Assembly (NCBI RefSeq): GCF_006974145.1
Contig: NZ_CP039456.1
Coordinates: 186,001-250,000, forward strand
From: Changchengzhania lutea
Lineage (GTDB): Bacteria; Bacteroidota; Bacteroidia; Flavobacteriales; Flavobacteriaceae
DNA length: 64,000 nucleotides
Reading direction: 5' to 3'
Part shown: positions 3,502 through 53,154 of the stretch, one piece after another
Layout of the letters: every line of letters starts with the position of its first letter
Position numbering within the stretch: position 1 is the stretch's first letter
Program-made: the position numbers and the translations under genes
The notes under the pieces: model-generated
Told to the model about the DNA's origin: nothing
The model's input: only the letters and a program-made list of their open reading frames with translations
The model's database searches: none

Positions 3502-3503
3502 CT

Positions 3504-4049: not shown

Positions 4050-4055
4050 GTTTTT

Positions 4056-6105: not shown

Positions 6106-6111
6106 AACTTA

Positions 6112-27943: not shown

Positions 27944-28017
27944 GGCGAGGTAGCTCAGTTGGTTAGAGCGTCGGATTCATAACCCGGAGGTCGGGGGATC
28001 GTGCCCCCCTCTCGCTA
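27944..28017 (+). tRNA. tRNA with anticodon CAT (probably elongator tRNA-Met)
   Basis: The 74-base cloverleaf has an acceptor stem of GGCGAGG with TCTCGCT, a D arm GCTC-AGTTGGTTA-GAGC, an anticodon loop TTCATAA (anticodon CAT), and a T stem of five G-C pairs. Odd points: the T loop reads ATCGTGC, so the usual T54-A58 pair is swapped to A54-T58, and the innermost anticodon-stem pair is A-C. Lysidine-type tRNA-Ile is an alternative reading of CAT; an initiator is unlikely (the first pair is G-T and not a C-A mismatch). Its 3' half is the probable prophage attachment site. Confidence 0.93.
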
Positions 28018-28020
28018 CAA
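27993..28020. other. Inferred att site at the tRNA 3' end
   Basis: The integrase frame begins just after the tRNA, the classic layout for integration into the 3' part of a tRNA gene with the tRNA restored. I searched by eye for a second copy of the 3' end (around CTCTCGCTAC) in the rest of the window and found none, so the partner site should lie beyond 64000. The exact core cannot be set from one copy. Confidence 0.5.
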
Positions 28021-28114
28021 ATTTATGAAGCCTTTGTTTACAGTGCGTACAACACTTTTTACAATGGCTTCTTTACTTAAAATACTATCTACCGAATACG
28101 CAACCGAATACAAA

Positions 28115-30021: not shown

Positions 30022-30576
30022 TTAATAAAATAGTTTTTGCTTCAATTGTTTATAAACGTTCTCACCAGGACACAAAGTAGGGCTCGTGTCTCTATGCCCT
30101 CTTATACCTATGATATGAAATGTTTTACACAACGCATCAGATAGCTGATTTGCTGAATTATAAGCCTCTTTAGATAATAAGTATGTTTCGTAATTACCCA
30201 CGAAAACAACCCCTATACTATTTGTATTTTGTCCGCTATCGTGCCATGTGGTTTCTTCAATATCATTTACAGCATACACGCTACCATCTTCGTAAATAGC
30301 AAAATGATACGCAAATTCTGCAAAGCCTCTTTTAATTTGATCTTTAGCGATGCTCTCAACGGTTTGATTTTTGTTACCAGCTGTGTGATGGAAAGTAATG
30401 TATAAAGGCTTCTCTAAAGTTCTTTTTTTGAAAGCCTTTGTTAAATGTTTGGGCAGTGTTCCCGTTTTAACGGTTTCGCCGCTTTCAAGAACAACGTCTT
30501 CTCCTGTGTAGTTAAATATGGTCACGCCTGTCCCCATCATAAGGGTAATTATTAATGCAATAGCTCTATTTTTCAT
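30022..30576 (-). CDS. N-acetylmuramoyl-L-alanine amidase (endolysin, Amidase_2/PGRP)
   Basis: The 184-residue enzyme has the zinc ligands of the PGRP fold: His63-His64 region in TFHHTAGN, the substrate-shaping AYHFAIYEDG, His161 in GHRDTSPTLCPG and Cys169. It cuts the amide between muramic acid and L-Ala. The N-terminal 20 residues are hydrophobic (RAIALIITLMMGTGVTIF), so it is either exported by a signal peptide or a SAR-type endolysin. Its start overlaps the stop of the GAF-like gene by 1 base. Confidence 0.93.
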   Translation of the reverse strand: MKNRAIALIITLMMGTGVTIFNYTGEDVVLESGETVKTGTLPKHLTKAFKKRTLEKPLYITFHHTAGNKNQTVESIAKDQIKRGFAEFAYHFAIYEDGSVYAVNDIEETTWHDSGQNTNSIGVVFVGNYETYLLSKEAYNSANQLSDALCKTFHIIGIRGHRDTSPTLCPGENVYKQLKQKLFY

Positions 30577-31271
30577 TAGTATGCAGTTTTTAACAACTTT
30601 TGGATGTTGGGCTTAAACCCATTATTGTTGTTTAGATTAAAAATTGTTTTTTCAGCTAAAGTGAATTCTGAATCTGTATGCTTTGCAATACTGACATAAA
30701 CCAAAAAATCATTATCCTCATCTATTGGCAATCGAGATATCGGTAACATCCTTGCGTGTTTTACACCTTCTGTCTCATAAAAATGTTTTAAGATCTGAGA
30801 TGCCATTTTAGCAGTTTCAACATCAAAAAAACCATAATACTCTGTGTCTTTTAACATTTTAACATAATGAGGGTCTAATTCTACATTCGTGTAAACACGA
30901 ACAGCATCTAATCTTTCATAACCATTTTTATAAAAATCGATAATAGCATCCGCCGATTTAAAAGAGCTTTTACCATTTCTTGCTGTTAATATTAGAATTC
31001 TATCTGCAGAAGTAGTTTTAAATATTCTTTCTACACAATCTTGTATAGAATTAACAATTACCAGTTTTATTATATCATCGTAAAAGCTTAATTTTTCATG
31101 TTGTTCAGTTTTTAAAAATTTTAATTCTTCCTGCTCGATTCTTAGTTTTTTGTTCTCAAGCTGTAAATTTTCTATTTCTAGTTTTTTCTTTTTTTGATCT
31201 CCTTTATATTTTAAAAGGCCCAATATGAATGCGGTAATAGCACCGATAAAGCCAACTACATCTAAATCCAT
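30576..31271 (-). CDS. Membrane-anchored coiled-coil protein with GAF-like domain
   Basis: The 231-residue product has one N-terminal transmembrane helix (VVGFIGAITAFILGLLKY), a charged coiled coil (about 25-65) and a C-terminal alpha/beta domain (about 75-225) with strands such as ADRILILTARNG, DFLVYVSIAK and a final helix, reminiscent of a GAF fold. I do not recognise a named family. Its place, just before the endolysin, makes a role in lysis timing or superinfection sensing possible; that is inference. A copy of the GAAACTACCGA element lies 88 bases upstream. Confidence 0.7.
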   Translation of the reverse strand: MDLDVVGFIGAITAFILGLLKYKGDQKKKKLEIENLQLENKKLRIEQEELKFLKTEQHEKLSFYDDIIKLVIVNSIQDCVERIFKTTSADRILILTARNGKSSFKSADAIIDFYKNGYERLDAVRVYTNVELDPHYVKMLKDTEYYGFFDVETAKMASQILKHFYETEGVKHARMLPISRLPIDEDNDFLVYVSIAKHTDSEFTLAEKTIFNLNNNNGFKPNIQKLLKTAY

Positions 31272-31358
31272 TAAAACCTATTTAAACCTAATTTTAACTT
31301 AATAAGTTACTAATGAATAAATAATTGTGACAAATAAATAATTCTACTGTTTCCTTTT

Positions 31359-31370
31359 TCGGTAGTTTCT
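31359..31370 (-). promoter_or_regulatory. Third copy of the GAAACTACCGA element
   Basis: On the minus strand AGAAACTACCGA lies just after the stop of the 31370 gene and 88 bases before the start at 31271. It is identical over 12 bases to the copy at 43069-43080. The second box found with the other two copies (ATACTTTTAA, 40 bases further) is not at that distance here, so only half of the element is conserved. Confidence 0.4.
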
Positions 31371-38372: not shown

Positions 38373-39248
38373 TTATCTTTGAAAAATTCCTGTTTTAAAT
38401 AAATTGTATTCGAAAAGTGATTCTTTTATTTTTTTCTGATTTCCGTTAAAGAACAGGGTTGAACCGAATAAAGAATCCGTAAAAAGACCAACCTGACTAA
38501 AAATGTTTAGGTATATAGTAAATTGAATTTTCTCTTTCTCAATTTTTACTGAAAACCCATCTGTTATAAAACATTTATAATCAACACTTTTATAGACCAC
38601 TTGTCTAAAATCACTTTGTGACAGTAGTTTTTTTAATCTGTTTATATTGTTTATATAATCATCAGATTTTAGCATATGACACTTGATCTCGATGTTTTTA
38701 AATGTCCTAAAATCTGTTAATTGTTTTTGAGGCGTGCTCGTTGTAATACGAGATTGCTTTAAGGTGGCAATATTATCGTTAAGCTTAACGATCTCGGTTA
38801 ACACCTTAAAGTCTGAGAATAGACTATATCCATCTATAGTTAAATATAATCCGCCAACGGCCGCGGGAATTGCACCTATAAACATCGGTTCTTCTTCAAC
38901 AAAAACAAGTCTATAGACTACATTCAAGTCATTAAAGTGCTTTAATTTATTGACCTCTTTTAGTTTTACATTAAAAGTTCCGAATTCATTAGTTATAGGA
39001 AAAAAACCAACTATAGAACTCAATTCATTTACCGATTGATTAAATGTTTTTAATGTTAAGCGATTATCGAAAAAAACATCAATTTTAAATTCCCTGCTTT
39101 TCCAAAATAAATCATCTTCATGTACAAGTGGCTCAATATATTCGCCCCAATCATAAAATGTTTCTCCTAACCTTGAGGGCATATCAAGAAACCCATAAAA
39201 ATTTATAGGTATAAATCCATAATCACTATATGGTTTACCGTTTATCAT
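38373..39248 (-). CDS. Distal tail (Dit-like) protein
   Basis: The 291-residue protein follows the tape measure gene with a 4-base overlap (start at 39248, tape measure stop at 39245), the classic place for Dit. The N-terminus has short strands (YSDYGFIPINFYGFLDMPSR) with the SREFKIDVFFDN strand typical of tail tube/Dit belts. The C-terminal half has further strands (VYKSVDYKCFITDGF, IQFTIYLNIFSQVG). It would form the ring between tube and tip. Sequence similarity is low, so position carries much of the call. Confidence 0.75.
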   Translation of the reverse strand: MINGKPYSDYGFIPINFYGFLDMPSRLGETFYDWGEYIEPLVHEDDLFWKSREFKIDVFFDNRLTLKTFNQSVNELSSIVGFFPITNEFGTFNVKLKEVNKLKHFNDLNVVYRLVFVEEEPMFIGAIPAAVGGLYLTIDGYSLFSDFKVLTEIVKLNDNIATLKQSRITTSTPQKQLTDFRTFKNIEIKCHMLKSDDYINNINRLKKLLSQSDFRQVVYKSVDYKCFITDGFSVKIEKEKIQFTIYLNIFSQVGLFTDSLFGSTLFFNGNQKKIKESLFEYNLFKTGIFQR

Positions 39249-42200
39249 CCTGTCAACCCTTTAGATTCAAATTGAGAGATAGCCGTTTCTATATTAGACA
39301 TCTTAATATCAATGCTTTCCAGATACCTGTTGTAGGTTGTATTTTGAACGATTTCGGATAAATAGAGCGAGCTTTGTTGCGCTATTTGAATACCGTTTGA
39401 TACATCTATTCTAATGCTGTTAAGTGTGCCTGCCAATATATTAGCCGTATCTTCTGTGATTGTAGAAATTGCCCCGGACAAGCCTTTCCTGCTTGAATCA
39501 TCACTTCCCAATGCGCCTATTCCAGATTCCTCTAATATTTGATTGATGGCGTCCAAATCGCTTTCTGCCCCGTTAATCATTTGAGCGTATAGGTTGCGCA
39601 ACGACTCAATTTCCTCTGCCGTATAATTACTATCTGATCCTGCATCGGCAAAGGCATCATAAAACTTCTCTATCTCTTTCTCTAAATATTTAATTTGAAA
39701 CGCCTGCAATAATGCGTCCTGCATTAGATCTTTAAAATCGTCCGCAAAATCTGCAACGCTTCGCTTGCCCTCTTTTAATCCTGAAATGATGCTATCAACA
39801 ATGGTTTGTTCTGTGGTACCTGTATATAGCTCGTCGAGCTGCTCTCTTAATTCTTGAGCCTTGCGCCTAGCGTCTTCTGCTTTTTGCTCAAACTCTTCGA
39901 GCTTTGCAGGATCCGTTCCGCTTCCTTTACCTTTTTTACCAATTCTTACTCCTAAGAATTTAACTTCCTTACGCGCTGCAAGCTCTGCCTCGGTTGCTAA
40001 TTTGGTCTGTTCTTCGAGGTCTTTTAAATCTTCAATAGCTTGCTTTCTGCCTGTGACCCTATCTTTACCAACACTTTGAGAAATTACATAGTCTAATTTA
40101 TCGATAGCTTTTTCCAAGTCTTTTATAGCCGCTTCAAATTTTGGTGTATCTGAATCTATTTCAACTGTTATAGCAGAATTTAGGACTTTTAAACCCCCAC
40201 TAATAATATCTAAAGGATTGCCAGATGCTATCCCTTTAGCAATATCTCCAGCACCTTGAGCAACTCCTGCTAATTGATCTAGTAGTTGCCCCATATCCTC
40301 GTCACCAAACTTTTTAAATAAGGATGATGCCTCTGATAAAACCCCTGAAACTTCTTGAAAAGTACCAGAAATGTTATTTCCTATTTGTTCCCCGGCAGAC
40401 TGAATATTGCTTTCGGCCTCGGCTGCTTCTTTAGATCCTTTTTTGGCTACTTTAAGCTTTTTTTGCCAATATTTTATATACGCCCTAAGCGCTTTATTGT
40501 TTAAATCGCCTAGGCTACGGGTAAGGTTTTCATATAGGTTTTGCTCTTCGTTAACAGCTCTGTTTGCAATATCCAATTCTTTACGCTTTGCATCGATCTT
40601 AGCTTGAAGTATATCCCTTTCAGATTGAGTTATAGCAGCTTTACGCTTTTCTTCCAATTGCTTTATCTGTCTTTCAATTGCATTTATTGAAGTGGTATCA
40701 ATTTTAACATCCTCTACAGTAGGATTAGGTTTTAAAGCGCTAACGGCTTTTTGTATTTCTCTAGGCTTAAGATTTAGATTATTTTGTGATGCAGTATCTA
40801 CAATAGCTTTCTTTTTCGCTTCGTTTTCTTGAAACTCTTTTAACTGGCTTCTTAAGTACTCAGTAAAATTTGCACCTTGTTTTAAAAGCGTTTCAAACTC
40901 TTTATCTGCGGCTTCTTTCCCTAATTGAGCAACATAGTTATTGTAACTATCGTATTGTTTTTTTCGCTCTTTTAAATCATCCTCAAAACGCTCGATATCT
41001 GTTCTATCATCATCACTTGAGCCAGATGGATTTGGTTTAAAATTGAAAAAGGCTTCACGTTTTTTGGCGGCTTCTTTAATTTCCTTATTTTCTGAGGCCA
41101 AGTAATCCTTAAGTATGTTTTTATTTGATTTGTACTGCTCGGCCGTTACATTACCAATCTTTTCAAGATCAGTTATTATCTTAATTCTGTTTTTATAAGC
41201 AGTCTCTACATCTTCAAACCCTGAATCTTTAAACTGTGAAATATCCTGTTCTTTTGAAGCTGCATTAATCCTTCTTATGGCTTCCTCCCTACCTTCGGCA
41301 CGCTTAAGGTCTAGTTTTAGGGCTTTTTCATTTTTTTGGAGTATTTCATCAACTATAGATGTTTGTGTAATTAATTCTTTATTTAGTTTTTTTTCATTTT
41401 CTACCAAATAAAATAATTGCTGACCTAATTTGCTAAATCCAGTTCCAGTTCCTAATCCTTTTATAGCAGTAATACCTAAAGATTTTTCTCCTTCATCTAT
41501 TTGTTTTCTAACATCCTTAAAAATTTCTTCATTAGGTAATGAATAATCAATATTTATTTTTAATCCTTTATTATCAGCTACTTGTTGAATTTTAGAAAGT
41601 TGATCATTAATTTCACTTTGTACATCTTCGATTTTAATTTCAATATTACCTTGCTTTTCAAGTTCTTTTTGAAAATCTTGTTGACGTTGAGCAAACTTAT
41701 AGCGTGTTTTATAGGCTTCATTTACTTTATCCAAAATGCCTAGCAACTCTGTATTTGTTACTTTTTCAGCATCTACACCTTTTAAAAATTCAGGGTATTC
41801 TTTTATAATATCTTGAATCAGTTTTTTACGCTCATCACTCTCTTCATTTAATCTGCCTAATTGCGTTTTTAATTCAAATACTTTTAATCGTTGGTCATCA
41901 AAACTTTTCTTTAGTTTTTCACTATCCGCTAGGGTGTCATCAAACAAACCGTTTAAAGCTCCAGCGATATCATTACTCATATCAAGAACTGCATCTCCAA
42001 CGCCTTTTGTGGTGGCTTTAATTCTATTACTAAATATCTCCCATTGATTAGCATTTGTAGAAGTTATCGTTTTAAAAGACCTATCCACACTTCCTGCAGC
42101 ATCTTTCATCGCTTCCAAATCATCAGCAGCGCCTTGCATATTTGGTCCAGCAATACCTATAATAGCGTTAACAGCTTCTATTCTACCTGCTAGCTCCTTT

Positions 42201-43003
42201 AGTTTGTTTTGGCTACCATCTGCTTGTTCAAATAGTTTTTGAAGTCCTTCCTGGAGTGACAATGTTTTAAATGCGCCATCTCCCAATACTTCATTTGCGG
42301 CAATAACAGCCGAACGTATTTGTGTCATAGCTACACTTGCGGGAACACCCTGTTTTGTAAGTGTAGAAATTGCGGCACCTATTTCTTGAAATGAGATATT
42401 GCTTGATGCCGCTAAAGGTGCTACGGTTGCAATTTGACTTGAAAGTTCTTCAAAAGATATCTTACCACGGTCAACGGTCGCAAACATAATATCTGCGACT
42501 TCCTGAGCATCTTGGGTGGTTAATTTGAATGCATTTAAAATAGTAGTTAAACCATCAGCGGCAACCGCAGTTTCAGTAACACCAGCAGTAGCAGATTTAG
42601 AAGCTATTTCTAAAATGTTTAAAGCATCTCCAGCTTCAAAGCCAGCACCTATAATTTCATAAAGACCATTTGCTAATTTATCAGGCGGTTCGGTGCCCAA
42701 ACGCTTATAAATATCAAAAACGTTTTTTTGGAGCTTGCTAAATTCTTTTTCAGAAACATTGGCAATGGTCTTAACTTCGGCCATAGCAGATTCAAAACTC
42801 TCGGCCATTTTATAGCCCTCATTAGCTATAATGGTAAATGCGCCAACTGCAGCAACTGCTAAAGCAGCAAACGGGTTTATCTTAGATATACCACTTGCCA
42901 TGCTCTGTATAATATTTACAGCATCTAATTTACCACGTTGTAAACCACTGTTATCTATTGCCGTAGCAAAAAACAATGAATTATCTCCACTAACCACACC
43001 CAT
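39245..43003 (-). CDS. Tail tape measure protein (TP901 type)
   Basis: The 1252-residue protein carries the TP901 core domain near the N-terminus (about 60-330; FESAMAEVKTIANVSEKEF, ATAGVTETAVAADGLTTIL, TAAPLA-like TVAPLAASSN) and then long charged helices (about 370-900) with several coiled coils. A Gly/Ala hydrophobic region at about 930-960 and a later helical end follow. It sets tail length and may help DNA entry. The length implies a tail near 180-190 nm by the usual 0.15 nm per residue rule. The two-box element lies just upstream. Confidence 0.93.
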   Translation of the reverse strand: MGVVSGDNSLFFATAIDNSGLQRGKLDAVNIIQSMASGISKINPFAALAVAAVGAFTIIANEGYKMAESFESAMAEVKTIANVSEKEFSKLQKNVFDIYKRLGTEPPDKLANGLYEIIGAGFEAGDALNILEIASKSATAGVTETAVAADGLTTILNAFKLTTQDAQEVADIMFATVDRGKISFEELSSQIATVAPLAASSNISFQEIGAAISTLTKQGVPASVAMTQIRSAVIAANEVLGDGAFKTLSLQEGLQKLFEQADGSQNKLKELAGRIEAVNAIIGIAGPNMQGAADDLEAMKDAAGSVDRSFKTITSTNANQWEIFSNRIKATTKGVGDAVLDMSNDIAGALNGLFDDTLADSEKLKKSFDDQRLKVFELKTQLGRLNEESDERKKLIQDIIKEYPEFLKGVDAEKVTNTELLGILDKVNEAYKTRYKFAQRQQDFQKELEKQGNIEIKIEDVQSEINDQLSKIQQVADNKGLKINIDYSLPNEEIFKDVRKQIDEGEKSLGITAIKGLGTGTGFSKLGQQLFYLVENEKKLNKELITQTSIVDEILQKNEKALKLDLKRAEGREEAIRRINAASKEQDISQFKDSGFEDVETAYKNRIKIITDLEKIGNVTAEQYKSNKNILKDYLASENKEIKEAAKKREAFFNFKPNPSGSSDDDRTDIERFEDDLKERKKQYDSYNNYVAQLGKEAADKEFETLLKQGANFTEYLRSQLKEFQENEAKKKAIVDTASQNNLNLKPREIQKAVSALKPNPTVEDVKIDTTSINAIERQIKQLEEKRKAAITQSERDILQAKIDAKRKELDIANRAVNEEQNLYENLTRSLGDLNNKALRAYIKYWQKKLKVAKKGSKEAAEAESNIQSAGEQIGNNISGTFQEVSGVLSEASSLFKKFGDEDMGQLLDQLAGVAQGAGDIAKGIASGNPLDIISGGLKVLNSAITVEIDSDTPKFEAAIKDLEKAIDKLDYVISQSVGKDRVTGRKQAIEDLKDLEEQTKLATEAELAARKEVKFLGVRIGKKGKGSGTDPAKLEEFEQKAEDARRKAQELREQLDELYTGTTEQTIVDSIISGLKEGKRSVADFADDFKDLMQDALLQAFQIKYLEKEIEKFYDAFADAGSDSNYTAEEIESLRNLYAQMINGAESDLDAINQILEESGIGALGSDDSSRKGLSGAISTITEDTANILAGTLNSIRIDVSNGIQIAQQSSLYLSEIVQNTTYNRYLESIDIKMSNIETAISQFESKGLTG

Positions 43004-43018
43004 GAAAAAAGACTTTTT

Positions 43019-43080
43019 TTAAAAGTATTTGGTTGCTCGCTCTTAAAGAATTAATTTGCGGTCTGGTTTCGGTAGTTTCT
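43019..43080 (-). promoter_or_regulatory. Two-box element upstream of the tape measure gene
   Basis: On the minus strand AGAAACTACCGA (43080-43069), then 40 bases, then ATACTTTTAA (43028-43019), 16 bases before the tape measure ATG. The same two boxes with the same 40-base gap occur at 49483-49544. The downstream box contains TACTTTTA, close to the TAnnTTTG -7 element. It looks like a phage late promoter with an activator site; function is inferred. Confidence 0.55.
43028..43058 (+). promoter_or_regulatory. Host-type promoter of the lone plus-strand gene
   Basis: TTTG at 43028-43031, a 19-base spacer and TTAATTTG at 43051-43058 fit TTTG-N19-TAnnTTTG with one mismatch. It points to the gene at 43089, opposite to all neighbours, and overlaps the two-box element of the tape measure gene, so the two promoters may compete. 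Confidence 0.55.
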
Positions 43081-43088
43081 CTAAGTTT

Positions 43089-43541
43089 ATGTTTAAGCTC
43101 ATTATAGGTAAAAGCTCATCAAGAATGTTTCAAAAGGCAGTCCATACAGCTTTGTTTTTGGGTGGCACTATTGAGGGCGATAAAATAATCGTAGTTGTAA
43201 ATGAAGATATGAAGGCCTACCAAAAGCTATTCCCATTATTTAGATTAAATGTTTTAAGCTGGAAAAACACAAGGGCTTATTGTGATGGTAAAAAAGTAAA
43301 TCCTTATCGGTTTATGTTGAAAATGGACCAGCAAAGACAAACCTTTTACGCTCAAGTTTTAGAGCAAATTGATGACGGCCATTTATTTGATGAAACCGAA
43401 CCGTTTTTGTATTACAAAAGAGAAGGCAATAGATTCTATTTTCAAGGGATTGATACCCGCTTCCATCTTGATTTTAAAGACAGAGTGTTATTTGATTTTG
43501 TGGATAAATACAATGTTGGTGATATTGTTTATTTTGAGTAG
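43089..43541 (+). CDS. Plus-strand gene inside tail operon (moron candidate)
   Basis: I choose the ATG at 43089 (MFKLIIGKSSSRMFQ) rather than the one at 43056, which would lie in the promoter. The 150-residue product has no signal or membrane segment and no recognised domain. It contains a hydrophobic strand (DKIIVVVNED), a motif RAYCDGKKVNPYRFMLKM and an aromatic C-terminal part (FYYFQGIDTRF-like). It is the only gene on the plus strand in 34 kb of phage minus-strand genes, with its own promoter, so it is likely an accessory gene expressed from the prophage. Confidence 0.7.
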   Translation: MFKLIIGKSSSRMFQKAVHTALFLGGTIEGDKIIVVVNEDMKAYQKLFPLFRLNVLSWKNTRAYCDGKKVNPYRFMLKMDQQRQTFYAQVLEQIDDGHLFDETEPFLYYKREGNRFYFQGIDTRFHLDFKDRVLFDFVDKYNVGDIVYFE

Positions 43542-43545
43542 AAAT

Positions 43546-43572
43546 GAACTGTAAAATAATACTTGACAGTTC
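43546..43572. repeat. Inverted repeat after the plus-strand gene
   Basis: GAACTGT (43546-43552) pairs with ACAGTTC (43566-43572) around 13 bases, 4 bases after the stop of the moron candidate, followed by a run of A on the plus strand. On the minus strand it is preceded by T. It could be a weak terminator or an operator. Confidence 0.35.
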
Positions 43573-43639
43573 AAAAAAAAAGACACACCCGTCGATGCGC
43601 CTTCATTGTCAATTTTAAAAATAACTACAAAATGAATAG

Positions 43640-43837
43640 TTATGCTTTTACCAATTGGTAATCTTTTATGACAGTTTCAATGTTTGTTTGAAATGTTATC
43701 TCTTCGTTTTTTAATGTTACAGCAATTATATAATCTTGTGGAGACTCTATATTAGAACAACTTATATCTATAATCTCAAAAACTTCATCTTTAAGTTTTC
43801 GTTTTTGATTGATATGTACTTCTGCAAAATAACCCAT
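43640..43837 (-). CDS. Small hypothetical protein
   Basis: The 65-residue product has alternating short beta segments (YFAEVHIN, VFEIIDISC, YIIAVTL, ITFQTNIETVIKDYQ) and no membrane segment. No family is recognised. It follows the solenoid gene by 50 bases that include a 10-base inverted repeat, and precedes the convergent moron candidate. It may be an accessory gene of the same insert. Confidence 0.55.
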   Translation of the reverse strand: MGYFAEVHINQKRKLKDEVFEIIDISCSNIESPQDYIIAVTLKNEEITFQTNIETVIKDYQLVKA

Positions 43838-43842
43838 GAAGC

Positions 43843-43867
43843 AAATATAAGCTGATTGCTTATATTT
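43843..43867. repeat. 10-bp inverted repeat between two accessory genes
   Basis: AAATATAAGC (43843-43852) pairs exactly with GCTTATATTT (43858-43867), loop TGATT. On the plus strand it is followed by T-rich sequence. It could be a terminator for plus-strand transcripts from the 43089 gene, or an operator. Confidence 0.4.
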
Positions 43868-43887
43868 TTATTGAGGTTAACCGTAAT

Positions 43888-44457
43888 CTAAATAATAATA
43901 GTATGTGAATTTTGTGAATTTTCAACCTGAACCTTATCATGAGCCATGACACAACTATAAGTCTCTGCTTTTACATTTGAATTGTCCCAAGCTTCAACCT
44001 TTGAAAAATCTTTGGCAGTAACCCTGCAATTATGAAACACATCAGCTGCACAGTTTTTTAATTCAATTTCAGTATCATTAAAACCTGTAACAAAGGAACT
44101 ATCAAAAGCTTTGCATTTTGCGTTATCAAAAAGAATAATTCTACTATGGCCAACGGCTTCAATTTCAACATCTTTTAAGCCAATAGCAAAACCATTATTT
44201 ATGTTTACGGATCCTTTATAAAATATATTGTTTTCGGATAATTTTTCCTCAGAGAACCATTCTATGAGTTCATCGGTTGTGATGCTTCCAGTATTAATTG
44301 TCCATTCTATGTTATCAATAAGTAATTCCCAGCAATCAGATTCATTAAAATTAAGGTGCAATTTCTTAAGCTTTAACCAAAATCCTTTACAAAGTGTGTT
44401 CTCTGAAAAGTTAGCTTCTTTTAATCGTTCAAAAAAGATGTTGAATTTAGTTTCCAT
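43888..44457 (-). CDS. Beta-solenoid repeat protein, accessory
   Basis: The 189-residue protein has a helical N-terminal half (about 1-75) and a C-terminal half with a repeat of about 8 residues: an alternating pattern of A-x-D/G-x-S/N-x-V, seen in VEAWDNSNVKA, VTAKDFSKVEA, VMAHDKVQVEN and FDNAKCKAFDSSFVTGF. This predicts a narrow beta-solenoid with Asn/Ser turns. Similar repeat proteins are known in phages, without a clear role. Its ATG lies inside the end of the tail chaperone extension (11-base overlap), which ties its translation to the frameshift product. Confidence 0.65.
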   Translation of the reverse strand: METKFNIFFERLKEANFSENTLCKGFWLKLKKLHLNFNESDCWELLIDNIEWTINTGSITTDELIEWFSEEKLSENNIFYKGSVNINNGFAIGLKDVEIEAVGHSRIILFDNAKCKAFDSSFVTGFNDTEIELKNCAADVFHNCRVTAKDFSKVEAWDNSNVKAETYSCVMAHDKVQVENSQNSHTIII

Positions 44458-44644
44458 GTTTTGCTAGTATATCAAATAATGTTTTTGGCTCTTTTTCTTT
44501 TTCGCGCTCTTCTTTGGTTTTTACTTTTGGCACCGATGCCGATAATAGAATTAAATTCTGAAAGGAAATTTGTCTAAAAACAAAATCGAATGTGTAATTA
44601 TAATAATTAGAAACGCTCCCTATTAATTGGTAGGGGTTGAATCG
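44447..44644 (-). CDS. Tail assembly chaperone GT extension (-1 frame)
   Basis: The region after the 156-residue chaperone frame is open in the -1 frame for 65 codons and stops at 44447-44449. It reads RFNPYQLIGSVSNYYNYTF and then DFVFRQISFQNLILLSASVP, the typical look of the T part of G/GT tail chaperones, followed by a charged tail (KTKEEREKEKEPKTLFDILAKHG). Shifting at the G-AAA-AAC heptamer at 44644-44650 (codons 149-150 of the zero frame) would give a GT protein of about 215 residues. No start codon is needed. Confidence 0.8.
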   Translation of the reverse strand, partial: RFNPYQLIGSVSNYYNYTFDFVFRQISFQNLILLSASVPKVKTKEEREKEKEPKTLFDILAKHGN

Positions 44645-45093
44645 TTTTTCGGGTTCATCATCATCGGATTGCTGGTGCTTGCAATTTGGAAAGAGTTCAA
44701 AAAAAAATCAGTCTGTAATTTTAGAACACTTTCATAGAACAGCATGTACAGCTCTTTAGCTGTTACGTTGTTCAAAATAAACGAAACATACCAATCCGGA
44801 TAATCATCTTGTTTTCCATGTGCAAGAATAGAAAATACCTGAGCCATTTCGGAACGGTACCTTACAGCTTCATCAATATTTAAATCTTTAGATTCTCTAA
44901 TATCCTCAGGGATGCCCATAACTATTGAAGCGCATTTTGATAACACTTCTAAAGTTGGAGGTTTTACAGTAAACTTTAAGGTTTGTTTTCCCTTTAAATC
45001 ATCTGGGAGCATTGATGCATCTTTAACATCAATAGTATACGTTGTTGGCTTTTCTATCAAAGCCTTGAGTATGTCTTGCTTCTGTTTGTCCAT
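44623..45093 (-). CDS. Tail assembly chaperone, G part
   Basis: The 156-residue protein sits between the tail tube gene and the tape measure, the position of lambda gpG. Its N-terminus has TYTIDVKDASMLPDDLKGK with an extended strand, then a mostly helical part. The last residues NPMMMNPKNDSTPTN include the slippery AAA-AAC codons near residues 149-150. It coats the tape measure during tail assembly; the G and GT forms should be made at a fixed ratio. A terminator just upstream may limit read-through from the tail tube gene. Confidence 0.8.
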   Translation of the reverse strand: MDKQKQDILKALIEKPTTYTIDVKDASMLPDDLKGKQTLKFTVKPPTLEVLSKCASIVMGIPEDIRESKDLNIDEAVRYRSEMAQVFSILAHGKQDDYPDWYVSFILNNVTAKELYMLFYESVLKLQTDFFLNSFQIASTSNPMMMNPKNDSTPTN

Positions 45094-45097
45094 ATTC

Positions 45098-45133
45098 TAA
45101 AAAAAGGGTTTCTTAAATTCATAAAAAACCCTT
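45098..45133 (-). terminator. Terminator between tail tube and tail chaperone genes
   Basis: On the minus strand AAGGGTTT pairs with AAACCCTT (45126-45133 with 45104-45111) around a 14-base loop and is followed by TTTTTTTAG. It lies between the tail tube stop (45151) and the chaperone start (45093), so it likely cuts most transcripts and keeps chaperone levels well below those of the tube protein. Confidence 0.72.
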
Positions 45134-45150
45134 CAAACTAAACTAAAAAA

Positions 45151-45672
45151 CTAAACTTGGAATTTTATTTCGAAAGGCGCGCCTTCAACACTTGCAGCCG
45201 ATACTGGAGTATTAGCCGTAAGTTGGACGTCCAATGAAAGCAATCCGTTTTTTGTGATATTACCGTCGAATTTCGCTACTACTTTAGCATAAGCAAATGT
45301 AATTTCTGTTTTTTTGCCTTCGGTCACGTCTGTTGTAATAACTACCGATAAATATTTATTTGGTACTGTTTTAGGAGCACTCCATACTTTATTGATATCA
45401 TCCCAAGCGCCACCCATAAGCATGACCGCGCTATCTCCCGTAACTTCGTAAAGTTTAAAGTTTGCGGTTGCTGGATTAGCACCTGTGTTTACTGTTAAAT
45501 AAGAATCATCTTGCTCTGTTGAAATAGTTTCTTCAGTAGCTTCACTTCCTGTTAAGGTCAATGAATTTAATACTACTGCCGCGAATGTCGTTAAAGTTGC
45601 GCCTACTACCCCGTCTCCAGGTAAACCGATCTCGATTTTTTCGACACCTCTGATATTATCTGATTTTGCCAT
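45151..45672 (-). CDS. Major tail (tube) protein
   Basis: The 173-residue protein is rich in small beta strands: GVEKIEIGLPGDG, TFAAVVLNSLTLTGSEATEE, KYLSVVITTDVTEGKKTEITFAYAKVVAKFDG split in turn, and GLLSLDVQLTANTP. This is the immunoglobulin-like or tube-fold look of siphovirus major tail proteins. Location after the tail terminator gene and before the chaperone supports it. It is followed by a terminator. Confidence 0.85.
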   Translation of the reverse strand: MAKSDNIRGVEKIEIGLPGDGVVGATLTTFAAVVLNSLTLTGSEATEETISTEQDDSYLTVNTGANPATANFKLYEVTGDSAVMLMGGAWDDINKVWSAPKTVPNKYLSVVITTDVTEGKKTEITFAYAKVVAKFDGNITKNGLLSLDVQLTANTPVSAASVEGAPFEIKFQV

Positions 45673-45675
45673 TTT

Positions 45676-46062
45676 TTACAATGTTTGAAATGTTAATTTT
45701 AAATTATAGAAATACATGCTATCTCTGTCTTTGTCTTTGAAAATGCCCTTATCATCATCAATTTGAAATGAAAGGCCATCATAAATGTTATCTTTTACAA
45801 GTGGCAATACCACTGCTAATATATCTTGAAACCTATTTAAATTAGCCCTTCCAGATATGACCTCCGGTACATAAATATTCAAATTGGCATAACCAACCTG
45901 TAGATATCTGTTCGGATTTGTCAACGTCTTTACTGATATGTTTTCTAACTGATCGCCATCCGGCACATCATTTATATAAACCTTTCCTGTAATTTCATCT
46001 GTTACAGATGCCACATTCAGTACTTTGTATAATTTAGATGCTATATCAATACTAGATTTCAC
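45676..46062 (-). CDS. Tail terminator/completion protein
   Basis: The 128-residue protein has the alpha/beta look of tail completion proteins (SSIDIASKLYKVLNVASVT, DQLENISVKTLTNP, YANLNIYVPEV, FQIDDDKGIFKD, YFYNLKLTFQTL). It lies after the HK97 gp10-like gene with a 1-base overlap and before the tail tube gene, the normal place for the ring that caps the tail. Call rests mainly on position. Confidence 0.65.
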   Translation of the reverse strand: MKSSIDIASKLYKVLNVASVTDEITGKVYINDVPDGDQLENISVKTLTNPNRYLQVGYANLNIYVPEVISGRANLNRFQDILAVVLPLVKDNIYDGLSFQIDDDKGIFKDKDRDSMYFYNLKLTFQTL

Positions 46063-46484
46063 TATATTAAACTTTTTATAATTGAACCTAATTCATCACT
46101 ATCTGGTGATGACCCCGTAATTACATCGAAACCTTTAGCCTCTACATAAGCAGCATAACTCATGCCTGCCACTCCAATTAATACATATCCCTTTGGATAT
46201 TTTAAAGCAATCTCGTTTGCAAAACTTTGCGCTTGCGACTGACCTTCTGTATTACCTTGAAAATTACGATCTTCTATCTTGCCATCTATTAGAATAATAT
46301 ATCCTATAGAGCTTCTTAGATTTCCAGTTCTATCTGTATAATTACCACTTATTCTCGCCTCATTTACAAATTGCTCTCCAATATATTGAAGCGTTTGCAG
46401 TGCTTTATTATCAACATCTTTTTGAAGTTGATTAAAAATGCTTTCAATTTGCTTGCCTTTAAATAGCGCTCTTATTCCAGCCAT
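46062..46484 (-). CDS. HK97 gp10-like head-tail joining protein
   Basis: The 140-residue protein has an N-terminal helix (KGKQIESIFNQLQKDVDNK, ALQTLQYIGEQFVNEAR) and a middle with NYTDRTGNLRSSIGYII, a strong match to the gp10 family, where TGNLRxSI is a hallmark. The C-terminal part has YVEAKGFDVITGS. It overlaps the connector gene by 13 bases. Predicted to act at head completion or tail joining. Confidence 0.82.
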   Translation of the reverse strand: MAGIRALFKGKQIESIFNQLQKDVDNKALQTLQYIGEQFVNEARISGNYTDRTGNLRSSIGYIILIDGKIEDRNFQGNTEGQSQAQSFANEIALKYPKGYVLIGVAGMSYAAYVEAKGFDVITGSSPDSDELGSIIKSLI

Positions 46485-46753
46485 ATCTCGCAGTGTGTTT
46501 GATAGGGAAATAATTGTACGATTTTAAACTGCTTGCCGTTAAATACAAAATTTTGACCATCATACTGAAACACGTTCGCCCCAAAATTTTTACAATAAAA
46601 CTTAGCTGAATAATCCAAAGTCTTTTGTTGTGAATTTGGCTCAAATCTTCCCTGTAATATTGTTTCAACTTTTGTTGATGTTGATATGCCATCGGCATTA
46701 TCGACTTCAGTTGCAACTACAATTTTACCTGTATGTGGATATCTAGTAATCAT
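46472..46753 (-). CDS. Head closure protein
   Basis: The frame is open from 46771, but ATG at 46753 (MITRYPHTGKIVVATE) is preferred because it overlaps the upstream stop by only 11 bases. The 93-residue product has strands typical of a small beta-barrel head closure protein (ILQGRFEPNSQQKTLDYSAK, FVFNGKQFKIVQLFPY). The genome position, after the gp6-like connector and before the gp10-like gene, supports this. Confidence 0.7.
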   Translation of the reverse strand: MITRYPHTGKIVVATEVDNADGISTSTKVETILQGRFEPNSQQKTLDYSAKFYCKNFGANVFQYDGQNFVFNGKQFKIVQLFPYQTHCEIWLE

Positions 46754-47075
46754 TGCTAGCGTCTGAAACACCTACATTAATGGGTTGCGGACTGTATTCT
46801 AAAGCTTTAGAATCTTCATATTTGTTGTATAATGCCAACGCTCTATTTTTTAAGAGCGACGTATTATATTCAACAGATAGTTGACCTTCTTTAAACTTAG
46901 GCAACAGCACTTTATCCATATATAGATCAGCGGTTACTAACTCAACATCTTTCAAAGAACTTTCTGTATAGGTAGCAGACCCATCAATAGATCTGCTACT
47001 TAACACAGTATTTATGTGGTTTACAGAAACATCTATAAACACAGGATTAGCTTGTATGGCTTCAAGAACCGTCAT
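46743..47075 (-). CDS. Head-tail connector protein (gp6-like)
   Basis: The 110-residue protein is mostly helical (EAIQANPVFIDVSVNHINTV, SLKDVELVTADLYMDKVLLP, SLLKNRALALYNKYEDSKAL), as expected for a connector ring below the portal. Its start overlaps the capsid stop by 1 base, so translation is coupled. Call depends on place and helical content. Confidence 0.7.
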   Translation of the reverse strand: MTVLEAIQANPVFIDVSVNHINTVLSSRSIDGSATYTESSLKDVELVTADLYMDKVLLPKFKEGQLSVEYNTSLLKNRALALYNKYEDSKALEYSPQPINVGVSDASNDY

Positions 47076-48373
47076 TATATGCTAGCTACCAACTCAGCTT
47101 CAAACAATACGATACCTTCTTTTGAGAGTGCATCTATTTTGTTTGATAACGTGCTGTCTTGCTGTGCAACAGTTGCCACAGGCACTTGTTTATCTACTTC
47201 ACGCGCTGCGTTAATACCAGCTACAACAGATACTTTAGTATAATTCGTTCCGTTATAATTGAAATTAGCATCGCCTTCTGTTTGTGCGTCATCATCTGAT
47301 TCGGCTTCGTTTGTGTCCATGATATAGATAGAGTCAACATTGTCCAAAACAGGAATTGCGAGCGCTTGTACACTTGTATTTTCCTTCAAAGGATTGTTGG
47401 TTCTAAATAAAGAGCCTAAAATGAAGTCATCAATAACGCTATATTCAACATTTTCAACAGGATGGTCAACTTCGGCTAATTCGCCATAAGTTAAAGTTCC
47501 CATATCTAAAGTAGAAGTCAAGGTTACGTTACCTCGTTTCCATGGCTCAACTGCTACTTTTTTACCACCTTTTTCAATTTGTACCATCTTATCAATTATG
47601 ATAAGCGTTACTCCAAATTCATCGGTTAAATAGCTTTGGATATCCTCTTTTTTCAATCTAAAAATTAAAGCAGCATCTACTTTTTGAAACCCTGCAAAAG
47701 CATCTTTAAGTTGTGCATTCTTTTTAAAGAGATTAAAAGTGGTTTTATCCATCCATAGATATTTTAATGCATGTCCGTTGCCTCTAGCTTTATTGATAAC
47801 ATTTTCAATATCATCAACTGGCGTTGCATTGGCGTCATTCCAAAGTTTCCCAACTCCAAACTGATTTCCTGATGGAATACCAAAATCAATACGAATCCCT
47901 ACACCTGTGTTATTAGTATCGTCAATAAGCGTTACACCTTCAGACATAGCTTGTAAGAACATGATATCTAATCGCTCATGAACGCCTTTTACACTATCAG
48001 CCAAATCTTCAAAAATCTTTTGAACCAATTGAAGCTCTTTACCACCTCTGGCTTTTAAGTTTTTTAAGGCTTGTAATGCGCTTTCAGTTAAAGCCTTAAT
48101 CATTCCTAATTTTGGCACTTCACCTTCTGCAGAAGCGTAAGAACCTCTTTTCTTCAATGAAAGTTCAGAATCTAAAGAAACAACATCGGCAGCCACAACA
48201 CTTGTGTTAGAGCTTAATGATTGCCATTTCATATCTGTAGAGAAATCCTTCTTTAAATACTTTTTGTATTCATACTGAATTTCATTTTCCGTATCGTTTA
48301 CCTTTTCGGTAATACCTTTTGCTATACTTGGAAAGTATTTAGCAATATAGTTTTTGAATATTGATGCTACCAT
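47075..48373 (-). CDS. Major capsid protein (HK97 fold)
   Basis: The 432-residue protein shows the long N-terminal helical part and the strand pattern of phage capsid proteins of the Phage_cap_E kind (EGVTLIDDTNNTGVGIRIDFG, ALKYLWMDKTTFNLFKK, LTDEFGVTLIIIDKMVQIE, KRGNVTLTSTLDMGTLTYGEL). It follows the decoration protein gene by 4 bases, and its C-terminal 100 residues are acidic and variable. It would form the icosahedral shell. Confidence 0.87.
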   Translation of the reverse strand: MVASIFKNYIAKYFPSIAKGITEKVNDTENEIQYEYKKYLKKDFSTDMKWQSLSSNTSVVAADVVSLDSELSLKKRGSYASAEGEVPKLGMIKALTESALQALKNLKARGGKELQLVQKIFEDLADSVKGVHERLDIMFLQAMSEGVTLIDDTNNTGVGIRIDFGIPSGNQFGVGKLWNDANATPVDDIENVINKARGNGHALKYLWMDKTTFNLFKKNAQLKDAFAGFQKVDAALIFRLKKEDIQSYLTDEFGVTLIIIDKMVQIEKGGKKVAVEPWKRGNVTLTSTLDMGTLTYGELAEVDHPVENVEYSVIDDFILGSLFRTNNPLKENTSVQALAIPVLDNVDSIYIMDTNEAESDDDAQTEGDANFNYNGTNYTKVSVVAGINAAREVDKQVPVATVAQQDSTLSNKIDALSKEGIVLFEAELVASI

Positions 48374-48377
48374 GGCC

Positions 48378-48749
48378 TTATTCGTTTATAAATCTGATTA
48401 AACTTAAATCCGTTTTAGCACCTGCGGGCACGGCATATTTTACCCACGCTTCATTTACTGTTCCGCGAACCAAGATTGCAGCTTGTGCATTTGTTGTAAG
48501 AATTGAAGCGATCAAAATACCTGCATAGGAATATCCAGCAGGTTTCGTTCCTGATGTTGGAAGCGGTTTAAAAATCTTACCAGTGGCATCATCTACGATT
48601 ATAACATGTCCGGCAGATATCTCTGTATCACCAAATCCTGTTACATCCAAAGTTCTGCCCCCAGCTACCGTTTCCAAACATTTTGTAATTACCACCGAAT
48701 CATTGGTGGTATCTACGCTGTTTTTACTCGTTAAATTAGCTGTTGCCAT
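48378..48749 (-). CDS. Head decoration protein
   Basis: The 123-residue protein has a Thr/Ser-rich start, then GGRTLDVTGFGDTEISAGHVI, TGKIFKPLPTSG and AAILVRGTVNEAWVKYAVPAG, the beta-tulip-like pattern seen in small decoration proteins such as lambda gpD. It sits between scaffold and capsid genes, typical for decoration or trimeric clamp proteins. The fold call is moderate. Confidence 0.72.
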   Translation of the reverse strand: MATANLTSKNSVDTTNDSVVITKCLETVAGGRTLDVTGFGDTEISAGHVIIVDDATGKIFKPLPTSGTKPAGYSYAGILIASILTTNAQAAILVRGTVNEAWVKYAVPAGAKTDLSLIRFINE

Positions 48750-48767
48750 TTTTTCGTTTTTTAAAGA

Positions 48768-49454
48768 TTAAATTAAATTAGCTACAATAGCATCAACATC
48801 TTCTTTGTTGGCTTCATCATTTTTAGATTGCCCCCCAACAGGTAAGCCTCTTCCAGAATTATCTCCCACAATAGCTGTGTGAATTTCTTGGTGTTCGGAT
48901 TCTAAGGATTTTACTTGATCTTCGAATGATGTTTCGCTTTCTAAATCGATTCTGGACAACCACTTCTCTTTGAGTTTGTCTGGTAGAGCTTCGGATTTTG
49001 TAATAGCAGCTTTTGCTTGTTCTAATTTAGATTCAGTGGTTTTAGATTTTTCGATTCCGTCAACCTTTTCCATTAAAGCTTTTGCCCAAGCAGGCATTTT
49101 ATTATCATTGTTTTGCGCGCCATCTTCGTCATCATCATTGTCATCTCCATCAATTTGCTTGAAGTATTTATCCTTAAATGTCTTAATGCCGGCAGTTACT
49201 TTTTTATCGTGCTCACTTTGCAATGATTTAGATAATTTAAGCACGCCGTCGAATCCATTTTTTTCGATAAAATCTGCAAATTCTTGAGATCCCAATACTT
49301 GAGAAAAGTCTAATTGTGAATCATTAGATTGAGTTGATTGCAATGAGATTATAATCCCCTCAATTTGATCTTCAGATGTAATATTAATGTTCTGTGCAAG
49401 TTCCTCGTTAAGCCCTGCCTTTTTGAGTGCCTTTTTGAGTTTCCCTTTTAACAT
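48768..49454 (-). CDS. Capsid scaffolding protein
   Basis: The 228-residue protein is highly charged, with long helices and an acidic linker (DGDDNDDDEDGAQNNDN) in the middle and a C-terminal part (EDVDAIVANLI) that would bind the capsid. No protease motif was seen. Scaffolds for siphovirus heads sit just before decoration and capsid genes, as here. The two-box element lies 29 bases upstream of its ATG. Confidence 0.78.
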   Translation of the reverse strand: MLKGKLKKALKKAGLNEELAQNINITSEDQIEGIIISLQSTQSNDSQLDFSQVLGSQEFADFIEKNGFDGVLKLSKSLQSEHDKKVTAGIKTFKDKYFKQIDGDDNDDDEDGAQNNDNKMPAWAKALMEKVDGIEKSKTTESKLEQAKAAITKSEALPDKLKEKWLSRIDLESETSFEDQVKSLESEHQEIHTAIVGDNSGRGLPVGGQSKNDEANKEDVDAIVANLI

Positions 49455-49482
49455 AGTAGATAATTTAGATTATTATTAGATG

Positions 49483-49544
49483 TTAAAAGTATATTGCAAA
49501 CCAAATACAATAAAGAGATTGCTGCTTATTTGTCGGTAGTTTCC
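49483..49544 (-). promoter_or_regulatory. Two-box element upstream of the scaffold gene
   Basis: On the minus strand GGAAACTACCGA (49544-49533), then exactly 40 bases, then ATACTTTTAA (49492-49483), 28 bases before the scaffold ATG. The upstream box overlaps the end of the 49526 gene. The -33 region contains TTG with a 16-base spacer to TACTTTTA. The same pair occurs upstream of the tape measure gene. Confidence 0.55.
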
Positions 49545-49855
49545 TTTAATAAGTCGATTTGAATCGTTTTTGTGGATGTAAAAAGCATTTCTGAAGCCTC
49601 AATCATTAAACTTTTAATATTTTTTTTGTTTTGGTTTTTTAAAAAATACCAATCGACAAATAGTTTTCGTTTTTCAAGTAGGCGTTTGTTCCTTTTCATT
49701 TTTTCCAAGTTTTCGTTAATTCCGTTTAGTTTTAGGTAGTATTCAAATTGATGATGGCTTTCTACAATGTGATTGAATTGTACAAATAATTCTTCTGGCG
49801 TTATGTTTAATCCGTGATCTATAATGTACTGTTCTACTGATTGTAATAAGTCCAA
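49526..49855 (-). CDS. Hypothetical phage protein, helical
   Basis: The 109-residue product is all helical in outlook (QSVEQYIIDHGLNITPEELF, NENLEKMKRNKRLLEKRKLF) with no signal. No family is recognised. It lies between the MuF gene (6 bases upstream) and the scaffold gene, a place where small head assembly or protease-like genes often sit. A phage regulator role is also possible. The end of the gene contains the GAAACTACCGA box. Confidence 0.6.
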   Translation of the reverse strand: MDLLQSVEQYIIDHGLNITPEELFVQFNHIVESHHQFEYYLKLNGINENLEKMKRNKRLLEKRKLFVDWYFLKNQNKKNIKSLMIEASEMLFTSTKTIQIDLLKETTDK

Positions 49856-52597: not shown

Positions 52598-52805
52598 TAA
52601 TACCTAATTTTATTAATGTATTTTGAATTGATGTTAACTCATAATCATATACCTCTATCTCGTATCCATTATTAGAGACAGCTATTTTTACACCTTCTTT
52701 TCTAATTATAATACCAACAACTATGTGTATTTTTTGTTCTTCGTCAGTTATTAAATAAACCGTTTGCCCTATTTGAAAAGGCACTTTAATTTCATTCATA
52801 TCCAT
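52587..52805 (-). CDS. Small hypothetical phage protein
   Basis: The 72-residue product looks like a compact beta-barrel (IKVPFQIGQTVYLITDEEQ, IHIVVGIIIRKEG, VKIAVSNNGYEIEVYDYEL), similar in outline to small SH3-like proteins. It starts inside the end of the HTH frame (10 bases overlap) and overlaps the next gene by 11 bases. Function unknown. Confidence 0.6.
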   Translation of the reverse strand: MDMNEIKVPFQIGQTVYLITDEEQKIHIVVGIIIRKEGVKIAVSNNGYEIEVYDYELTSIQNTLIKLGINEK

Positions 52806-52957
52806 TTGGGTGCTTTTCTTTTGTTGTTTTTAATTGAAAATAAATTGTTTTGCCCCCAAATATTATAGACCTGGGATAGTGAGCATCCGCAAGCTTTAGC
52901 TGTTGATTTAGCAATTAAATTGCCATGACATGCTAATATTTTATCTTTTAATTTCAT
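52796..52957 (-). CDS. Small helix-turn-helix protein
   Basis: This 53-residue frame, with ATG at 52957, reads KDKILACHGNLIAKSTAKACGCSLSQVYNIWGQNN in part: two helices, ALIA then a turn and CSLSQVYNI, the form of a homeodomain-like HTH. A basic C-terminus (KNNKRKAPKW) follows. Its start overlaps the stop of the 52957 gene (TAATG). It may be a DNA-binding protein or a fragment of one. Confidence 0.6.
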   Translation of the reverse strand: MKLKDKILACHGNLIAKSTAKACGCSLSQVYNIWGQNNLFSIKNNKRKAPKWI

Positions 52958-53154
52958 TAACACTTTTTAAATCCTTTAATAGAATGCCTTTTAGTTGAAG
53001 CATAGTGTGGGTTTCTAATCTTATTCGTTTTACTGTGTACTATTCTCAAGCCCCTAACCTCATTAATCTTTTTTACGGTATGCTTTGGATTACCACCAAA
53101 CAAAACCCATTTGAGTTTTATAAAAAAGATTCTTATGTTTTTAAAGAGCTTCAT
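52957..53154 (-). CDS. Small basic protein of unknown function
   Basis: The 65-residue protein has a short hydrophobic N-terminal part (IRIFFIKLKWVLFGG) and a strongly basic rest (KHTVKKINEVRGLRI, STKRHSIKGFKKC). It could bind DNA or membrane. Its stop overlaps the HTH start. No family is recognised. Confidence 0.55.
   Translation of the reverse strand: MKLFKNIRIFFIKLKWVLFGGNPKHTVKKINEVRGLRIVHSKTNKIRNPHYASTKRHSIKGFKKC

Follow-up and report, generated by a model that had tools for sequence, protein, structure and literature searches.

The window analyzed here, a 64,000-nucleotide stretch of the Changchengzhania lutea genome (contig positions 186001–250000), carries a prophage whose late genes lie on the minus strand and comprise those for terminase, portal, head morphogenesis, scaffold (named by position), capsid, tape measure, tail, and lysis functions. 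The IMG/VR provirus L003 (53,180 bp) encodes an identical capsid protein and, by arithmetic from the locus coordinates, aligns with approximately positions 28025 to 81204 in window numbering. The corresponding stretch begins at a tRNA-Met gene (27944–28018), and the prophage is about 53 kb long. Ahead of the scaffold and tape-measure genes, a two-box element of the form GAAACTACCGA-N40-ATACTTTTAA is present on the minus strand at 49543–49483 and 43079–43019. A preliminary description of this DNA had drawn attention to both pairs and to their identical 40-base gap, which can be read directly in the sequence, while placing the upper ends one base too high, at 49544 and 43080. The lower box stands 28 bases from the scaffold ATG (49454), as had been reported, and 15 bases rather than the reported 16 from the tape-measure ATG (43003).

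The box pair did not arise in any of 100 dinucleotide shuffles of the window, and in the complete C. lutea genome (4,130,958 bases) it occurs twice, ahead of these two genes only. The upper box GAAACTACCGA by itself has seven copies genome-wide, three of which are prophage sites, each on the late strand. The two-box element is real and conserved, and we propose that it is probably an activator-dependent late promoter of a temperate long-tailed Flavobacteriaceae phage, driven by the protein encoded at 49526–49855.

Related phages were gathered by capsid searches, which supplied seven viral loci and three genome loci at first and then the best 80 of 263 confirmed viral loci. Among 397 genomes of Flavobacteriaceae, the family to which both C. 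lutea and Aestuariibaculum marinum (G317) belong, the capsid search gave six matches, three of which were used (two others were duplicates and one was a weak partial match). Conservation of the exact sequence GAAACTACCGA was rejected, as this box is absent from the relatives save the twin L003. An exact search misses the relatives because the box varies by phage, and the counterparts become visible once gene starts are aligned: each close relative then has a related box before both its scaffold and tape-measure genes. The box is GAAACTACTG in A. marinum (L010) and in L005 and L006, GACACTAC in L004, GAARCTACGGA in L022 and L024, and GAARCTATTGA in L025. The preliminary description had named absence of the pair from related phages as an outcome that would speak against it; the pair stands before both genes in C. 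lutea and in eight relatives, down to 40% capsid identity, and these nine phages together supply 18 scaffold and tape sites. G009 (40% capsid identity) contributes two of these sites as well as a third site of its own, having been retrieved by capsid and recognized as box-bearing only in the later survey of boxes and proteins, and G406 adds a tape site with GCAACTACTGA. Deeper variants include CACCTACGCA, shared by L051 and L077 (40% capsid identity) before the scaffold and tape genes, and CATCTACGCA at the scaffold sites of L053 and L054. The distance from CTAC to TTTR at the scaffold sites of these variants is 52 bases, the same as in the window; at the L051 and L077 tape sites it is 51, with TACTTTGC, and CTAC to TA is still 48.

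The geometry of the element is constant. The upper box and the TAnnTTTR −7 element are separated by 41 bp in all 18 sites, across a spacer that has largely diverged, and MAFFT aligned 14 sites over 60 columns with zero gaps. Columns G1, A2, C5, T6, A7, G10, T53, A54, and T57–59 are invariant in 17 sites, a set without the G406 tape site, which departs from A2. The upper-box consensus, GAMRCTAYNG, is asymmetric. When 11 joined records were scanned for a loose box followed after 36–44 bases by TAnnTTT[ATG], 17 matches were obtained, 16 of them on the late strand of eight phages and every one of these with a gap of 41. The lone other match, on the opposite strand, has a gap of 42, and the same scan gave no match in G409, G410, or G006. 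TAnnTTT is found in 18 of 18 sites, a presence that partly reflects selection because most sites were found with a pattern demanding it; the presence of both sites in every record is not a product of that selection.

The published placement of TAnnTTTG at −12 to −5, given in the accessible part of PMC9723704, would place the upper box between about −64 and −54 (center about −59) and columns 29–33 at −36 to −32. As the preliminary description had noted, the lower box resembles the host −7 element, fitting the Bacteroidetes sequence save for its last base, which is A in 15 of the 18 sites and G in three. The accompanying remark that the −33 box is poor holds in that TTTG is absent there, and needs qualifying in that a weaker CTTYA-like element is favored. 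Columns 29–33 of the 17 sites prefer C, T, T, any base, and A, with A in 71% of sites at column 33, T otherwise, and never G, and the tape site of this prophage is without the C and A of this middle element. In Flavobacterium columnare, an excerpt of PMC2483708 describes TTTG at −33 as dispensable yet required for full activity.

An exact 41-bp spacing would not be needed by a repressor bound near −59, yet it is constant at every scaffold and tape site, and the −7 and −33 sequences differ from the host consensus in the way that activated promoters are expected to. It is quite improbable, then, that the upper box serves as the operator through which a repressor silences late genes in the lysogen, even though the element lies within a prophage and phage specificity would be expected of a repressor site too. 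An RNA or DNA structure in place of a promoter, such as an antitermination or processing signal, is hardly credible: fixed two-part elements before genes can be antitermination sites, but RNAalifold predicted no pairs on 14 sites, the lower box is itself a −7 element, and upstream of the tape site there is a terminator-like hairpin.

A leave-one-phage-out matrix was scored at all positions on both strands of nine records. In eight of them, no other position outscores the scaffold and tape sites; in the ninth, G003, these two rank first and third, with the third site of that phage in second place. Every non-site falls at least 7 bits under the weaker of the scaffold and tape sites in its record. 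Scaffold and tape boxes of the same phage differ by only seven mismatches in total over nine phages, and as few mismatches arose in 12 of 362,880 permutations of the phage pairing. Boxes that are alike within a phage and different between phages suggest that the binder is probably phage-specific, and this pattern of variation probably points to a protein that the phage itself encodes.

The most likely binder and activator is the candidate protein encoded at 49526–49855, between the head morphogenesis and scaffold genes and immediately upstream of the first site. In the close relatives that were read, the last codons of this small gene contain the box, or the gene ends a few bases before it. 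An AlphaFold2 model of the 109-residue protein (predicted local distance difference test score, pLDDT, 89.5) has helices at 80–91 and 95–102, and its best structural matches are the DNA-binding domain of DeoR (Z 5.0 over 48 residues) and TrpR (Z 4.4). Short relatives of the protein match HTH_22 and HTH_23 below the cut-off. With a profile of the protein, L051, L077, L053, and L054 each show two matching small genes ahead of the scaffold gene, and G009 (L100) shows one; the proteins of all five are absent from the profile. In a survey of 87 capsid-gene loci, box and protein are found together in 15, the box without the protein in none, the protein without the box in one, and neither in 71; the box in this survey means two known forms with the exact spacing, such that other forms would be missed, and in 68 of the 71 the sequence ahead of the capsid gene extends for 1,500 bases or more. 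A residue of the predicted recognition helix may vary with box position 9: K or R is found with G; N, E, or S with T; and I with C. This rule, made after seeing the data, fits eight of nine phages and half of the ninth, with G009 lined up by eye and with G404 and G407 sharing one helix.

The model is weakly similar to the sigma chains 9e87_F (Z 4.7), which we take to be sigma from its place in the complex, and 7qh5_A (Z 4.3), and the −7 element mostly ends in A, as might be expected if a phage-encoded or alternative sigma factor read the whole element as an unusual promoter. This is very improbable, given that the −7 element otherwise matches the primary sigma consensus and that a protein of 109 residues has room for one such domain only; moreover, we know of no sigma contact as far upstream as a box near −59. 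Alternatively, the late promoters may need an activator whose identity is that of an early phage regulator or a host factor, while the predicted helix-turn-helix protein serves head assembly or packaging. The location of the protein among head genes is compatible with such a role, and other potential binders are encoded by a small gene at 52957–53154 (65 residues; in four of five core relatives), by the divergent plus-strand gene at 43056–43541 within the late cluster (in four of five core relatives and three further records), and by a small helix-turn-helix-like open reading frame (ORF) recognized by eye at 52796–52963. We nonetheless consider another binder unlikely. Loci with box and protein outnumber those with box and no protein by 15 to 0, no early-region gene was found in at least four of the five core relatives (E 1e-3, ORFs of at least 40 residues; G003, at 40.6 kb, may lack early genes), and boxes that differ by phage argue against a single host factor. 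Of the other late-strand genes, those recovered from all five core relatives belong, by annotation or position, to the head, connector, and tail.

A third exact copy of the upper box, missing from the preliminary description, lies at 31369–31359, directly after a stop codon. It begins 98 bases before the start of the 231-residue gene that precedes the endolysin gene, and its lower box is poor. A further upper box before tail-end or lysis genes is likewise present in A. marinum, G003, G405, and G009; the third-site lower box fits in G003 (TAAATTTG) and nearly fits in G009 (CATTTTTG). By matrix, the third site ranks second or third in this prophage, A. marinum, G003, and G009 and only seventh in G405. 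For this comparison, G002 and G407 are fragments, and the endolysin of this prophage was called from PHROGs and the lysis genes of other phages were named by eye.

Several observations weigh against our interpretation of the element as a late promoter driven by the 49526–49855 protein. The scaffold-site box overlaps codons of the 49526–49855 gene, and therefore some of the conservation there could be coding. The −7 sequences at the third sites of this prophage, A. marinum, and G405 are poor (TTCATTAG, GAAATTAG, and GAAATTGA, respectively), the third-site candidate of G404 falls within coding sequence, with 211 bases between it and the next start, and no third site was visible when looked for in G406. 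When the pattern GAMACTACNGNN41TANNTTTR was searched in the 397 Flavobacteriaceae genomes with no selection by gene, 44 matches in 41 genomes were obtained, compared with 38 for the reversed pattern used as a control; because the control is nearly as frequent, most of these matches are due to chance. Three genomes (C. lutea, A. marinum, and G009) have two matches, each time a scaffold/tape pair of a prophage, and the reversed control likewise has three genomes with two. The genome-wide evidence is the location of the pairs, not their number. The tape site of G130 is a further true match, the scaffold box of that genome deviating from the pattern. A class-level search of 385 genomes gave 17 matches in 15 genomes, with two each in C. 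lutea and in G652, where they are identical including the spacer and thus form an internal repeat; no new phage box pair was found in these 385 genomes.

For the protein, the structural match of Z 5.0 is weak, and searches at E 0.01 matched it to neither a Pfam nor a PHROG family. Foldseek of the model in PDB and BFVD returned nothing below E 0.001; a notable BFVD row above this threshold (probability 0.98, E 0.63) is a 60-residue protein of a Flavobacterium phage. The 15 loci with box and protein reduce to about 11 distinct phages; phages in the profile or their twins account for 10 of the 15, so the Fisher p of 6e-16 overstates the link between box and protein. L027 has a short related protein elsewhere in the locus and no box. 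Proteins of about 52 residues (one longer) that are related to the C-terminal half of the candidate occur at eight further places in Flavobacteriaceae genomes (L114–L120 and L123), some beside phage-like genes. A search of eight regions with such short relatives for a repeated box 40–65 bp above TAnnTTTG or TAnTTTG gave no repeated box at this spacing, except for a different repeat in two. In G359 (L139/L140) and G185 (L151/L152), a 14-base AAACATTTTACAAA-like repeat stands at the same distance above TATATTTG at two gene starts, with one copy adjoining a repressor-like gene; it was rejected as the same element, its sequence being different. In G084, a repeat has two copies 107 bases apart, and the other regions have short matches only. 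Chryseobacterium phage MA9V-3 carries one short relative, among mostly unannotated genes.

In the mechanism that we propose for an activated late promoter, host RNA polymerase with its primary sigma factor would meet a weakened −7 element (TAnnTTTA rather than TAnnTTTG) and a non-consensus −33 sequence. These features fit a promoter that is weak on its own, and the promoters would thus stay off until the asymmetric upper box, at its fixed distance, is occupied by an activator that recruits polymerase from upstream. Class I activators touch RNA polymerase, and the fixed distance seen here suggests that the bound protein would do the same. The candidate gene closes the terminase-portal-head morphogenesis run, with its end overlapping the first target promoter, and the matrix finds no high-scoring site ahead of the terminase-portal run. 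Because the gene lies at the end of a run with no site ahead, its product could be made first. Once made, the activator would turn on the scaffold, capsid, and connector genes, the tape measure and tail genes, and the lysis genes. The hairpin at 43604–43579 separates the first two target units (one terminator-like hairpin was found, against a mean of 0.3 in shuffles). The tape-site box lies near the divergent start of the 43056–43541 gene and would be non-coding if that gene starts at its ATG at 43089. The earlier suggestion of a phage-specific late promoter with an activator on the upper box is, at the level of sequence, supported by the invariant spacing, the phage-specific box variants, and a strong candidate for the binder gene, for which that suggestion had offered no name. 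The features of the three putative target units are collected in Table 1.

Table 1. Features of the prophage that bear on the two-box element (window positions)
Feature	Position	Strand	Remark
Candidate activator, 109 residues, predicted C-terminal helix-turn-helix	49526..49855	-	Scaffold-site upper box in its last codons
Upper box GAAACTACCGA, scaffold site	49533..49543	-	About −64 to −54, assuming use of the −7 box; conserved in relatives
CTTTA at −33 place, scaffold site	49511..49515	-	Column statistics, columns 29–33
Lower box TACTTTTA, −7 element, scaffold site	49484..49491	-	Predicted transcript start near 49479
First gene of target unit 1, named scaffold solely from its position ahead of the capsid gene	48768..49454	-	PHROG match of unknown function
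Major capsid protein, target unit 1	47075..48373	-	PHROG 29
Terminator-like hairpin between unit 1 and tape gene	43579..43604	-	Consensus match only
Gene divergent from tape gene	43056..43541	+	ORF from TTG; in-frame ATG at 43089 (by eye)
Upper box GAAACTACCGA, tape-measure site	43069..43079	-	Conserved in relatives
Lower box TACTTTTA, −7 element, tape-measure site	43020..43027	-	Predicted transcript start near 43015
Tape measure gene, first of target unit 2	39245..43003	-	PHROG matches
Third upper box GAAACTACCGA, ahead of lysis genes	31359..31369	-	Third-best matrix match in prophage
TTCATTAG at −7 place of third site	31310..31317	-	Poor match
First gene of target unit 3, 231 residues, function not assigned	30576..31271	-	
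Endolysin/amidase, target unit 3	30022..30576	-	PHROG 1493/822

Two further features of the neighborhood deserve mention. The head morphogenesis protein (49862–52015, minus strand) has an insertion at about residues 250–610 that is missing from several relatives; it partly matches an HNH endonuclease family and looks like an intein. Just right of the window, within 6 kb of the prophage early region, there are three identical reverse-transcriptase ORFs of 426 residues, of the group II intron type by eye (L013, minus strand, 1180–2460, 3349–4629, and 5647–6927).

Sister phages without the box carry a palindrome in the corresponding place. In 50 of 69 box-less loci, TTTAGAATNATTCTAAA is found within four mismatches ahead of the scaffold gene, compared with seven in a shuffled control that also took in box-bearing loci; three of the 69 rows (L008, L011, and L020) are one phage. 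The carriers include L007, L008, L011, L044–L049, L055, L056, and L058–L060, among others, and in 39 of the 50 the palindrome is 14–17 bases above TAnnTTTG. It resembles the Fur-type host iron operator. That reading is unlikely, as exact copies of the palindrome are confined to two positions in the 5.2-Mb G787 genome, separated by 14 kb on the prophage-bearing contig, and none is present in G007. The location at the scaffold promoter of box-less loci suggests instead that sister phages employ a different control element at this position, perhaps a late promoter of a second, phage-specific class. If so, late control would be a module that can be swapped between sister phages. We lean toward the view that the 49526–49855 protein and its relatives represent an undescribed family of small late activators with a C-terminal helix-turn-helix, acting on Bacteroidetes-type promoters from a box held near −59, in which box and recognition helix co-evolve from phage to phage and whose slot can be taken over by another element in sister phages.

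Late gene control in temperate Bacteroidetes phages appears to be little described, and a literature search of titles and partial abstracts, with many journals outside its coverage, found no description of late promoters of Flavobacteriaceae prophages. If the proposed activator and its box operate as we suggest, the module would predict late operons, lytic timing, and activators in uncharacterized Flavobacteriaceae prophages. It would also offer a natural set of box and recognition-helix pairs for specificity studies and, in our judgment, possibly a phage-derived switch for genetics in Flavobacteriaceae.

Mu C and the ArpU/RinA-type regulators are small phage proteins that switch on late genes, and late activation by a small phage protein would be common to those systems and the one proposed here. 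A distant relation is possible; no ArpU/RinA-type Pfam family was among the matches at E 0.01, in a single-sequence scan of a kind that misses distant relatives. P2 Ogr, P4 Delta, and 186 B offer a closer parallel in layout, in that a small phage protein activates a set of scattered late operons from a site ahead of the core promoter, which for P2-type activators lies near −55. Several dispersed late operons also share a site in this prophage, with two strong sites and the third upper box. According to the available portion of PMC3931495, P2 has four late promoters, a TGT-N12-ACA site, and the zinc-finger protein Ogr with a C-X2-C-X22-C-X4-C arrangement. In contrast to this C4 zinc finger on TGT-N12-ACA, the candidate examined here is a predicted helix-turn-helix protein whose translation contains no cysteine, and the box is asymmetric with a CTAY core. 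TGT-N12-ACA is absent from the 23 sites of 90 bases that were searched. Because of the absence of cysteine in the candidate and of this site, the system is not a member of the P2 Ogr type, the cysteine argument applying to this candidate and not to any other binder.

The core of the element resembles promoters of the Bacteroidetes primary sigma factor (TAnnTTTG/TTTG), with TAnnTTT at the same −7 place. The deeper variant TACTTTGC at the L051 and L077 tape sites fits a shorter TAnnTTGY motif (SM5) described for F. psychrophilum in the accessible part of PMC9723704. Compared with primary sigma promoters, however, the elements reported here mostly end the −7 sequence in A, do not favor TTTG at −33, and carry an added upper box at a fixed distance.

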